Of a DNA stretch of 45,381 nucleotides, positions 1 to 3,025 are shown piece by piece. How positions within the stretch are numbered: the stretch's first letter is position 1; each line of letters starts with the position of its first letter. Origin of the DNA: Trinickia symbiotica (GTDB lineage Bacteria; Pseudomonadota; Gammaproteobacteria; Burkholderiales; Burkholderiaceae); NCBI RefSeq assembly GCF_002934455.1, contig NZ_PTIR01000033.1, positions 1 through 45,381 on the forward strand. The letters are read 5' to 3'. The notes beneath the pieces are model-generated. The model was not told where the DNA came from. It made no database searches and was given only the letters and a program-made list of their open reading frames with translations. A program made the position numbers and the translations under genes.

Positions 1-16
1 ATCTCGTATCTCCCTC

Positions 17-58
17 GTTACCCGGTAACTATCGATTCGAAACATGTTACCCGGTAAC
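17..58. promoter_or_regulatory. Two LacI/GntR-type palindromic operators
   Basis: The 13-bp near-palindrome GTTACCCGGTAAC occurs at 17-29 and again, identically, at 46-58, a centre-to-centre distance of 29 bp. The arms GTTACC/GGTAAC are perfect around a single central base. This shape resembles operators of LacI-family sugar regulators such as gluconate repressor GntR. Two copies this close suggest a repressed promoter. No gene starts to the right of them within 300 bp, so the controlled gene is probably off the left edge and transcribed leftward. The regulator identity is inference. Confidence 0.5.
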
Positions 59-356
59 GCGAAATCTACCGATGTGTGGCAGATTTAGCGCTTACAGTTC
101 AACGAGGTTGGCCGAAGCGCCAGCGCCTGTAACGTGCGACGCCGCGTGCGACCCATACGAAGGCATCTAGTCTTGGCGCAATCGGCGACCGCGTCGCGTG
201 CGTGCGACCGGCCCTGAGGCGAGACGGCGGGGCATCAGGCTATTGGCCCGAACGGCCGGAGCCCAGCGACTGTGCAAGGGCCTTTCCCACCACTTTTGAG
301 AATTCCCAAAGATGGTGGGAATCCTTGATACAAACGGCAGCTGAGTTTGTCCCGTG
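59..356. other. Non-coding stretch left of the three-gene cassette
   Basis: About 300 bases with no convincing reading frame on either strand. Apart from the palindromes at its left border and the hairpin at 284-321 I see nothing functional in it. Confidence 0.5.
284..321 (-). terminator. Hairpin downstream of the three-gene cassette
   Basis: TTCCCACCA at 284-292 pairs perfectly with TGGTGGGAA at 313-321, enclosing a 20-nt loop that contains a second, weaker CTTT/AAAG pairing. It lies 36 bp beyond the stop codon of the last cassette gene, where a transcription end is expected. No T-run follows the stem in the minus direction, so it may be a weak or Rho-assisted terminator, or an mRNA-stabilising structure. 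Confidence 0.4.
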
Positions 357-1190
357 TCACTCAGCCAGCACAGGCTGTTGAGGGTCAGCGGCGAGGCTGA
401 TGTGCTCCAGCCTCCAACGCTTCAGCTGCTTGAACATCTGATAGGTGAGCGCTGACTCCGACATCGGTTCGCAGGAACGCAGTTCGATGTGCTGCCATTT
501 CTTTGAGGGGGCAAAAAGCTTTTCCCTGAAGGCGGTCTCGATGGTATCGGCAGCCGTAGTTGCCGCCTTTTCCGCCGCAAAAAAATCGGGGTCCGCCTGG
601 TGCAGGATAGTGATGTCGAGCTTATAGGTGTCGTCCGGACCGTTCCGAGTGACTTCCGCGCCTTCGTCCACGTCGAAGAAGACGCCGATAATCAATTCCC
701 CATGCGGCTTGACCGCCTTCGCGATTTTCTCCGCCAGTTTGGTTTCCTTGGTCAATCGACGCTCGAATTCATCCGCAAAGGCAGAGCGCCGGTACCGACT
801 GGCCAGCCACATCTGCCAGACGGCGTGGTCCTCGGAACGAAGTCGGACGTCGGAGCGAGGCAGATATTCATTTAGCTTGAGCTTGACGACATCAACCTTG
901 GCTGTCGCCTCGAACTCCGCCCAGAAGGGAGCATCGCCCGCAAACTCGATGTGAAGCTTGCGAGCGTTTTTGGCGTGGGTGCAGTTGCCATCCTTCGCGG
1001 CCAGACAACCCACGACGACCTCAACGACCGGCTCGAATTGCGGGTCCTGCGCGAGGTCACAGTCGTGAGTGGCAACGACGACTATCGTCTGGTCGGGGTC
1101 TTCCGCATGGCGAAGCCCCAAAGCATCAATGGCGTCGTCGCCGAGAGGAAAACCCTGGCGCCACGGTGTATCACGATTCCACTCCACCAC
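357..1190 (-). CDS. Uncharacterised protein with HDCD motif (third gene of cassette)
   Basis: A 277-residue soluble protein I do not recognise. No signal peptide or membrane segment is visible. The N-terminal third holds the most motif-like segment: a hydrophobic strand followed by T-H-D-C-D-L-A (His42, Asp43, Cys44, Asp45), then E-P-V-V-E-V-V-V-G and C-T-H-A-K-N-A-R-K near residues 70-78. Clustered His, Cys and Asp could form a metal or active site, but that is inference. The middle (about 130-165) is charged and helical; the C-terminal half has two predicted strands (IIGVFFDVD, YKLDITIL) and a basic helix. It starts with GTG nine bases after the preceding stop codon, and its AAGG ribosome site overlaps that stop, so it is translated from the same transcript. 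It is the candidate effector of the cassette. Confidence 0.8.
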   Translation of the reverse strand: MVEWNRDTPWRQGFPLGDDAIDALGLRHAEDPDQTIVVVATHDCDLAQDPQFEPVVEVVVGCLAAKDGNCTHAKNARKLHIEFAGDAPFWAEFEATAKVDVVKLKLNEYLPRSDVRLRSEDHAVWQMWLASRYRRSAFADEFERRLTKETKLAEKIAKAVKPHGELIIGVFFDVDEGAEVTRNGPDDTYKLDITILHQADPDFFAAEKAATTAADTIETAFREKLFAPSKKWQHIELRSCEPMSESALTYQMFKQLKRWRLEHISLAADPQQPVLAE

Positions 1191-1199
1191 GTCGCACCT

Positions 1200-1835
1200 T
1201 TACACCTGGTCGTTAGATGGGGGAAGGTCAAAGTCAGCAGTAGCTGGCGTCTTCGCGCGGTTGGCAAATCGAGCGTTCATGCGCTCGCGTTGAGCGACCT
1301 CGCGCCGGTGAGTCTGCACCAGCATTAGCGCCGCGTCACGTGCGGAGTCCCCTGCCTGTGCAACTTGCATGAGTGTCCGCCCGTTGGCGAACTTCCGCTT
1401 AAGCAATGCCGCATTTACGGCGACTCCCTCGTGGGCCAGCACATCGGCCGCCTGAGCAAGGTCCTGCAACCTGGCAGCATTTTCCTCCGCAACTTGCTCG
1501 CCATTGAGCCAGTTGTAGACCGACTGACGGGACACACCGAGAGTCGCGGCAAGGTCCGACACCGCCGGATGCAAAACTTCGCGAATCCGTGCAAGGTCTT
1601 CGGCGGGCGTCCGGACATCGTCGACCACCGCTACTTCGACGCCGGGAGTCGCATACAGGGCATGCTGCCCGCCTCGCTGGAGGTGTTCGGGTGACAGGTG
1701 ACCGCCCGTGCCGATTACCGACAGCGCTGCGCCGGCCGCTACGAACCATCCCACCAGCCGAACAACGTTCGAAGTGTCGCCGGTTGCTGCCGGATGGTCC
1801 ATTACCCATCCTCCGTACGTCGTTGCGCTGCTCAT
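1200..1835 (-). CDS. Membrane-anchored helix-turn-helix protein (second gene of cassette)
   Basis: A 211-residue protein. One hydrophobic segment lies at about residues 24-43 (VVRLVGWFVAAGAALSVIG), and a helix-turn-helix follows at about 90-112 (L-A-A-T-L-G-V-S-R-Q-S-V-Y-N-W-L-N-G-E), typical of Xre-type DNA-binding domains. The C-terminal 70 residues are helical and end in an acidic, proline-containing tail. The layout suggests a regulator tethered to the inner membrane, or a short hydrophobic region used for oligomerisation. The start is supported by a good GGAGGA ribosome site seven bases upstream. It sits ten bases after the TIGR04255 gene and nine before the HDCD gene. The direct repeats ahead of the operon are plausible binding sites for it. 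A role as autorepressor or antitoxin-like partner is inference. Confidence 0.8.
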   Translation of the reverse strand: MSSATTYGGWVMDHPAATGDTSNVVRLVGWFVAAGAALSVIGTGGHLSPEHLQRGGQHALYATPGVEVAVVDDVRTPAEDLARIREVLHPAVSDLAATLGVSRQSVYNWLNGEQVAEENAARLQDLAQAADVLAHEGVAVNAALLKRKFANGRTLMQVAQAGDSARDAALMLVQTHRREVAQRERMNARFANRAKTPATADFDLPPSNDQV

Positions 1836-1845
1836 GATTCCTCCC

Positions 1846-2640
1846 TCAGGCCCAAGCGGCCAACGCGTGCTCGGTCACGATGGCTTTGAAGCACTTATCA
1901 ATTTCGTCGTGAAGGGCTTTCAGCTGCGTCTCAACATTGCCCAAGTCGAATGCTTCTCGCTGAGTCGTAGAAGCATCGGTGTCGATTATGGCGTGCAAAC
2001 CGGCCCCCTGCGTGAATCGCGGGTCGATTTTGGGGGCGAGTGCGGTTAGTTCAAGCGGCAGACCGACTAGCCCGTGCCGAATGAGCACGCGGGAGACAAG
2101 CTGGCCTGCAGGTGTCGCGACGATGGTTTCACTGACTGAGTGCTGGTGCTGAACATCCCCTCGCAGCGACAAACCAAGAACCTCCGGCACGAGGAAGTCT
2201 CGGAGCGACTCCCTTTCTTCTGACGGCCGTACAGCATCCAGGTAGCGCAGCCCGATTCGCTCAATAAAGTCGAGACGAAGGGCGTCATGCACGACGCCCA
2301 AACCCGCCAATAGCGCTCCTGAGAAAGCCTCGAACGTTTCATAAGCCGTGGTCTGAAACGACAAGGCGTTCGTCTCTAACACAAACCGCCTGTTGCCCGA
2401 GATATCACCGAACTGGTACCTCGACTGAGGCGTGACGGTCGGCGCCGTAACCCGACCGGGCTCCCCGCCGCCGAAGGGCAGCACCAGACGCTGGACGACC
2501 TCCGGCTTGTAGTCCGGATAGTGTCGCTCGCGCATCTTGGCCTGAATCGCGGGAATATACGCGTCCAAATCCAGGACGGGGTTGAACTGGACCTGAGCCA
2601 CGGTGTAGTAGACCGGCGCATTGTTCAGTTTCTTTCCCAT
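1846..2640 (-). CDS. TIGR04255 family protein (first gene of cassette)
   Basis: A 264-residue protein matching the sporadically distributed TIGR04255 family, whose function is unknown. The recognisable features are the start L-N-N-A-P-V-Y-Y-T-V-A-Q-V-Q-F, a mid-region strand F-V-L-E-T-N-A-L-S-F-Q-T-T-A-Y-E-T-F-E-A-F, the conserved R-I-G-L-R-Y-L-D segment at about 138-145 and the late I-I-D-T-D strand. Members usually run 230-270 residues, so it looks complete. The start has a GAGG ribosome site. It opens a three-gene operon with a membrane HTH protein and an HDCD protein. Codon use and GC look lower than in the core genes to the right, which fits acquisition by transfer. Family assignment is from memory of the pattern. 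Confidence 0.8.
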   Translation of the reverse strand: MGKKLNNAPVYYTVAQVQFNPVLDLDAYIPAIQAKMRERHYPDYKPEVVQRLVLPFGGGEPGRVTAPTVTPQSRYQFGDISGNRRFVLETNALSFQTTAYETFEAFSGALLAGLGVVHDALRLDFIERIGLRYLDAVRPSEERESLRDFLVPEVLGLSLRGDVQHQHSVSETIVATPAGQLVSRVLIRHGLVGLPLELTALAPKIDPRFTQGAGLHAIIDTDASTTQREAFDLGNVETQLKALHDEIDKCFKAIVTEHALAAWA

Positions 2641-2657
2641 GACATCCTCAACGGTTG

Positions 2658-2696
2658 ACTTGACAGGCAGGTTGACACTTTACACTGTACTTTACA
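2658..2696 (-). promoter_or_regulatory. ACTTTACA direct-repeat operator of the cassette
   Basis: ACTTTACA occurs at 2677-2684 and 2689-2696 (12-bp period), with a one-mismatch copy ACTTGACA at 2658-2665. The group lies 18-56 bp upstream of the TIGR04255 start. On the minus strand a weak -10-like TACAGT falls between the two perfect copies, so a bound protein would block it. The HTH protein of the same operon is the natural candidate binder. The repeats are seen directly; the regulatory role is inferred. Confidence 0.45.
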
Positions 2697-2935
2697 GGTT
2701 AGCCATCGAAAAGTACTTTTGGCATCTCGTATGGTCGCGCGCCCTGCTGTGGTTTCGAAGCTAGCTGCCTCCGGCGCCAGACGCGCTCGCTCGCTGGGGG
2801 CAAATCGGTGGCAATTCTGATTCATTGCCGTGCTCGAAAAAACTGGTGGCAAATAAGTGGCAATTTTGTCCCGATTGCCACCAGCATCGCTGTCTATTGC
2901 GTGACCGTTGACTCCAATAAGTCATTGATTTGAAT
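2697..2935. other. Non-coding segment between cassette and tRNA remnant
   Basis: No credible gene. It contains the upstream region of the cassette and, from 2808, the GTGGCAA repeat cluster listed separately. No tRNA 5' half is present here. Confidence 0.5.
2808..2881. repeat. GTGGCAA iterons near the attachment site
   Basis: The heptamer GTGGCAA occurs at 2808-2814, 2846-2852 and 2857-2863, and inverted (TTGCCAC) at 2875-2881. The last two form an eight-base perfect inverted repeat, GTGGCAAT/ATTGCCAC, with a nine-base spacer. A second dyad, GGCAAT/ATTGCC, spans 2810-2829. Clusters of short repeats within about 150 bp of a tRNA attachment site are typical arm-type binding sites of tyrosine integrases. 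No integrase gene is in the window, so this role is inferred from position. Confidence 0.45.
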
Positions 2936-2952: not shown

Positions 2953-3025
2953 GGGTACGGATATCTGAAGCGAAAGGGCGTTCGGGACGTAGAGGCCGGA
3001 GGTTCGAATCCTCTCACCCCGACCA
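2951..3025 (+). pseudogene. tRNA-Pro(CGG) 3' remnant (attachment site)
   Basis: From 2997 to 3025 the sequence is a perfect tRNA-Pro 3' end: T-arm GGAGG-TTCGAAT-CCTCT, acceptor strand CACCCCG, discriminator A and encoded CCA. Upstream, 2981-2987 still reads as an anticodon loop, TTCGGGA (anticodon CGG). The anticodon stem, however, keeps only three pairs, and the D-arm (about 2960-2976) lacks the GCGC stem and GG loop. CGGGGTA at 2951-2957 can pair with six of the seven acceptor bases. It is therefore not a functional tRNA. It is best read as the attachment-site copy left at the right end of an element integrated in a tRNA-Pro(CGG) gene, with the intact gene expected to the left of the window. 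Confidence 0.7.

Follow-up and report, generated by a model that had tools for sequence, protein, structure and literature searches.

We analyzed a 45,381-nucleotide stretch of Trinickia symbiotica DNA (the window; assembly GCF_002934455.1, contig NZ_PTIR01000033.1, hereafter C33, positions 1 to 45,381), which carries near its start a cassette of three minus-strand open reading frames (ORFs) that we call T, H and C in the order of the operon. As an earlier reading of the DNA alone (the sequence-only reading) had described, the ORFs are separated by gaps of 10 and 9 bp, and the ribosome site of C (AAGGTG) overlaps the TAA stop of H. The first gene, T (1846..2640), encodes a 264-aa TIGR04255 protein and is the operon's constant component. 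H (1200..1835), which holds the same position in T-H-C loci, encodes a 211-aa helix-turn-helix (HTH) protein and candidate antitoxin/autorepressor, and C (357..1190, GTG start) encodes a 277-aa protein with an HDCD motif and is the putative effector or toxin. The promoter/operator region before T (2641..2700, minus strand) contains TGTAAA/TGTCAA repeats. That the cassette has its own operator is borne out by its relatives: counted on either strand and with close relatives included, AGTTTACA is present in 67 and GGTTGACA in 63 of 101 regions upstream of T, compared with 10 of 88 for the commonest octamer in control stretches 2 kb upstream. The repeats also occur at loci from three other phyla (L019, L024 and L025). 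The cassette thus has the layout of a type II toxin-antitoxin (TA) system, namely a compact co-directional operon, a DNA-binding candidate antitoxin and a conserved operator.

The three genes are conserved as a mobile unit that recurs across many bacterial phyla. Using a profile of C alone and keeping the best 80 of 111 confirmed genome loci, we found T, H and C together in the same order at 79 of the 80 (some of these loci are truncated at contig ends, and in one T is fused to H), so the trio is not a chance assembly. At the exception (L022), an apparent transposase ORF, recognized by eye, lies directly before a shortened C. The order was also kept in 25 of 26 viral contigs, the last being interrupted at a contig end, and T lies directly upstream of C in all 8 plasmid records carrying C, with an annotated HTH or hypothetical gene between the two in all 7 records inspected. 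Median gaps are 17 and 11 bp across 112 trio loci with script-picked start codons. The sporadic distribution attributed to the family was confirmed, T being present in 25 of 299 relatives (own genome counted) and absent from the 10 listed genomes of the same genus. C was found in 10 genomes of this survey and in 8 of a second one (398 genomes of the phylum), at 16 distinct places, with T adjacent at 13. At another of the 16 (G381) the contig breaks off, and T stands at the end of a different one; its T plus H-like gene (L150) and its H plus C (L217), each at a contig end, are probably one trio split by assembly.

Homologues of C are spread across phyla. A 78-row tree of C, in which some rows are metagenome-assembled genome bins that may be impure, carries 13 phylum labels; on its well-supported branches the Pseudomonadota label must change 9 times or more. 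Bordetella, Solimonas and Thauera, which belong to three families, have nearly identical C proteins. Judged from these sequences, the distribution of C fits lateral transfer, which is not proof for each branch, and the trio's presence on plasmids, on viral contigs and at a tRNA site agrees with the mobile location proposed for it. One trio (L009) is carried by an Acinetobacter phage (208-kb record), in the vicinity of a methyltransferase and a gene with a DGQHR domain. In Meiothermus taiwanensis (L005, 8001-8030) there is an in-frame stop close to the start of the C match, and the record annotates a later start. Two trio relatives had no near DNA match in E. coli genomes.

C was unrecognized in the sequence-only reading and has no NCBIfam family and only sub-threshold Pfam matches; it matches the PHROG family phrog_34320, a phage family of unknown function (3.8e-8). 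The HDCD motif is present at residues 42-45 (1056..1067, minus strand), and C44 and D45 are invariant in an alignment of 73 C proteins, as are R77, W128, R132 and R135. In the AlphaFold2 model (AF2; pLDDT 90.7), residues 8-136 (783..1169, minus strand) are predicted to form a MazF/CcdB-like barrel, followed by a ~140-residue C-terminal domain of its own. The likeness is one of overall fold; the catalytic residues of MazF are Arg/Thr. The sequence-only reading had suggested an antiphage or TA-like system with a membrane link; the TA-like reading gains from this predicted fold, which is that of TA toxins, while the membrane link was not supported when H was examined.

H does contain a Cro/C1-type HTH (about residues 92-112; 1500..1562, minus strand), matched by several Pfam HTH models, all under their cut-offs; R103 and W109 do not vary across 74 aligned rows. 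Among PADLOC models H matched the mad1 HTH (E 0.006, 20 residues), the trio's sole match at E <= 1. Its N-terminal segment (about residues 25-45; 1701..1763, minus strand) combines a single hydrophobic stretch (residues 25-41, KD17 1.88) with a GTG motif, and may be a tag on which T docks. 'Membrane-anchored', as H had been described, fits this copy at most, because only 40 of 74 aligned H proteins score as membrane-like (KD17 >= 1.6). In the set of 112 H proteins, which includes close copies, 62 have a membrane-like N-terminus, and 98 have [GS]TG plus G/S/T/A/C/V within the first 80 residues (4.0 expected by shuffling). Three H proteins (L040, L041 and L045) keep the motif without the hydrophobic stretch. 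In L018, from Rugamonas sp. A1-17, T is fused in frame to an H that lacks its first ~70 residues including the motif, and a second T-H fusion comes from a metagenome (P0249); both join T at the N-terminal side of H. At a T-less locus (L216, genome G354), H is without the GTG motif; in G237 the H N-terminus is gone too, but the gene looks disrupted. Because the motif outlasts hydrophobicity, and because of the fusion and T-less cases, a tag for T fits these sequences better than an anchor, although the cases are few. On the hydrophobicity counts, the motif and the fusions, we rejected a membrane anchor as the general role of H. A membrane-anchored HTH signalling cassette, which the hydrophobic stretch here and the 40 membrane-like proteins would favor, is accordingly very improbable to us, given the 34 of 74 aligned H proteins under the KD17 threshold, the three that keep the motif alone, and the fusions, which place T before the segment or replace it.

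The assignment of T to TIGR04255 is firm (152.6 bits against a cut-off of 30, residues 4-263); this is its only NCBIfam family, and no Pfam family matches at E <= 1. No sequence repeat was detected between its two halves (E 0.064). The T model has a predicted alpha/beta saddle-like fold with weak likeness to guanidino-kinase and AdoMetDC folds. From this likeness one could argue that T is itself a catalytic effector or small-molecule sensor, with C and H as its regulators or nucleic-acid-binding partners. We regard this as unlikely, since the matches have rmsd ~4 or low TM-scores, unrelated folds (kinases, TBP, AdoMetDC) score close to one another, and known toxin families appear among the third genes and not as T. 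Membership of T in the SecB family was rejected for want of a sequence match in Pfam and NCBIfam, and the SecB fold is not among the structure matches listed for the T model, a listing that does not exclude it. In two TIGR04255 operons (L120 and L124), the genes lie between what appear by eye to be phage structural genes. Sequence searches of the PDB with profiles of C, T, H and the short C-like family described below returned just generic HTH and chance-level matches.

T stays constant while the third genes behind it vary. Of the 55 further TIGR04255 genes that the two surveys yielded, 12 adjoin a C found by the C profile, and 51 are followed by two same-strand ORFs, each within 45 bp (by mechanical ORF calls). 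BLAST clustering (E < 1e-3) divided the third genes into groups of 15 (C and short C-like proteins), 10, 7, 6 (with a QGD...SNSCD pattern), 2 and 2, plus 9 singletons, and the middle genes into groups of 20, 13 (H-like), 4, 2, 2 and 2, plus 8 singletons. H-like middle genes are paired with C in 12 cases and with a zeta toxin in one (L116; PF06414, 1.5e-8). Another third gene (L140) is a true PemK/MazF (PF02452, 1.1e-18), which may be a chance neighbor. By eye, a recurring F...LSV-type motif is visible in two BLAST families of small third genes, one with seven members (L126, L131, L144, L146, L151, L152 and L160) and one with ten (L121, L124, L128, L129, L135, L145, L148, L156, L157 and L159), which share a middle family with a WDGY-type motif. 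No Pfam family was found for the third genes of L126, L145 and L160 or the middle genes of L128 and L145. The third genes of L127, L136 and L137 have a HVGI...CHLAWH...GLTCATF-like pattern that by eye recalls permuted NlpC/P60-like enzymes, but an NlpC/LRAT-like assignment was dropped when Pfam gave no support for L127 and L137, as was a by-eye HEPN assignment of L155 and L161, with no Pfam support for L155.

Taken together, we favor, at a probability of about one half, a mobile tripartite TA-like module in which C is the effector, H its antitoxin and autorepressor, and T a partner of H. C would act through its MazF/CcdB-fold domain and the C-terminal domain that follows it. H would neutralize C and, with its HTH acting on the conserved TGTMAA repeats that precede T, repress the operon. 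T would be a dedicated partner that binds the hydrophobic/GTG segment of H and keeps H folded or active, in parallel with the SecB-like chaperones of toxin-antitoxin-chaperone (TAC) systems. If T were titrated or inactivated, for example by a protein of an invading phage, H would fail and C would arrest the cell. We infer the toxicity of C, its neutralization by H, the binding of T to H and the trigger. A broader proposal, which we put forward only tentatively, is that a widespread, modular immunity or toxin platform is built around TIGR04255, where a constant saddle-shaped sensor-chaperone T would read an N-terminal tag on exchangeable antitoxins, these would hold exchangeable toxins (MazF-fold HDCD, zeta kinase and probably several unrecognized families), and invader proteins would displace T from the tag.

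Several observations weigh against the tripartite module. The fold matches of T are weak and none of those listed is to a SecB-like chaperone, and the fold score of C is only somewhat above the level of unrelated models. C has no PemK (PF02452) match at E <= 1, and hhalign against 12 PemK sequences gave E 0.23; MazF sequence homology was rejected on this value and those for the short C-like (0.43) and SNSCD (0.059) families, and no MazF relative was confirmed on the viral contigs. The C, short-C and SNSCD profiles are linked weakly or over the QG...CD region alone, with single hhalign comparisons giving E 0.0004, 0.002 and 5e-5 at probabilities of 36%, 14% and 67%. The zeta toxin accounts for 1 of 55 T operons, and comparing coordinates in 199 relatives revealed no further T-H-zeta operon beyond the one in G066; zeta matches as such occur in 474 plasmid records. 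The GTG motif is missing in 14 of 112 H proteins, and is retained in fusion P0249, and only 3 of 21 non-C middle proteins examined have membrane-like N-termini. H and C occur without T in G237 and G354 (2 of 16 distinct C places). Finally, the PADLOC neighbor test failed to distinguish nearby genes from distant ones and did not show defence enrichment. Its ORFs came from a rough longest-ORF criterion, and the 145 genes used from each set (of 213 near and of 163 far) matched 78 and 163 PADLOC families, respectively, the counts being of families and not of genes. A Pfam scan covered the near genes, without a far control.

This neighbor test also bears on a different antiphage logic, in which T would be the phage sensor, H purely a transcriptional regulator and C an agent acting directly on phage nucleic acid, with no antitoxin relation. 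Its appeal lies in the sporadic occurrence on plasmids and viral contigs and in restriction-modification genes within 8 kb of the trio on two plasmids (L005 and L008), but the fusions tie H to T and the test did not show enrichment, and we judge it quite unlikely. A selfish addiction module for plasmid or island maintenance, built as the tripartite module but with no defence role, would suit the trio's place at the end of an element and its presence on plasmids, in one case close to a phage tail gene; with the trio also on megabase scaffolds, we consider it improbable.

Regarding the genomic setting, the assembly comprises 61 contigs (6.7 Mb) and the window starts at base 1 of C33, which places the cassette at the edge of its contig. 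The lower G+C content noted earlier was confirmed (0.58, 0.61 and 0.58 in the first three kb, 0.59 to 0.70 in later ones), leaving the cassette region G+C-poorer than most of the window. The proposed tRNA-Pro remnant (2979..3025, plus strand) indeed duplicates the 3'-terminal 47 bp of the intact tRNA-Pro(CGG) carried by contig C51 of the same genome (94% over a 67-bp match) and is the probable right end of an integrated element. The simplest reading is an element integrated in tRNA-Pro with the trio at its right end, C51 and C33 presumably carrying its two ends. An ORF adjoining the intact tRNA-Pro looked integrase-like by eye, and Pfam gave no match. Window positions 1-98 form a repeat with two TTACCCGGTAAC palindromes, which has at least 10 matches in the same genome, several close to contig ends, and is found at 7 places on one Burkholderia savannae plasmid.

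The trio looks like an undescribed three-part toxin switch with an exchangeable toxin-like part. It was not recognized as a named system before, and no PADLOC model of known or candidate defence systems matches T or C; it is also absent from search listings on three-gene defence operons and tripartite TA systems. TIGR04255, sporadTIGR04255 and, which we take to be names for the same family, IPR026349 and CHP04255 are named in none of the open-access papers searched, with most subscription papers and bioRxiv preprints outside the search. Should this 'sporadic' family prove to be the invariant member of a three-part toxin system, a large number of hypothetical proteins encoded behind its genes would at once be candidates for antitoxins and toxins, and addiction to a chaperone would have evolved with another partner besides SecB.

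Among known systems, MazF/Kid/CcdB toxins share the predicted fold of C residues 8-136, whereas C has no detectable sequence-profile similarity to them, an extra C-terminal domain and its own invariant residues. The omega-epsilon-zeta systems encode a regulator, an antitoxin and a toxin in one operon. The trio is likewise a three-gene operon, and one T-H operon ends in a zeta toxin; however, no epsilon was seen, T is not a known part, and zeta is as rare as stated above. Panacea antitoxins, in the accessible part of PMC8832971, similarly join a constant module to many toxins, but their constant part is an antitoxin domain, while in the trio it is the separate protein T. Similar to the trio, SecB-type TAC systems, as the available portion of PMC5105189 describes them, have three parts, an antitoxin whose additional segment would make it reliant on a partner of its own, and one partner family serving several antitoxin families. 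There the SecB-like chaperone binds a C-terminal ChAD, which also acts when grafted on the N-terminus of model proteins, whereas H carries its conserved extra motif on the N-terminal side, no SecB sequence match was found for T and the third-gene families differ. In CmdTAC, according to the sections of PMC11618068 at hand, a phage capsid protein draws the chaperone away; the partner is called a chaperone, and TAC systems are said to use SecB-like ones. By analogy, the trio may follow the same logic, with the chaperone drawn off, the antitoxin lost and the toxin freed, although CmdT is an mRNA ADP-ribosyltransferase and C is predicted to have a MazF/CcdB-like fold.
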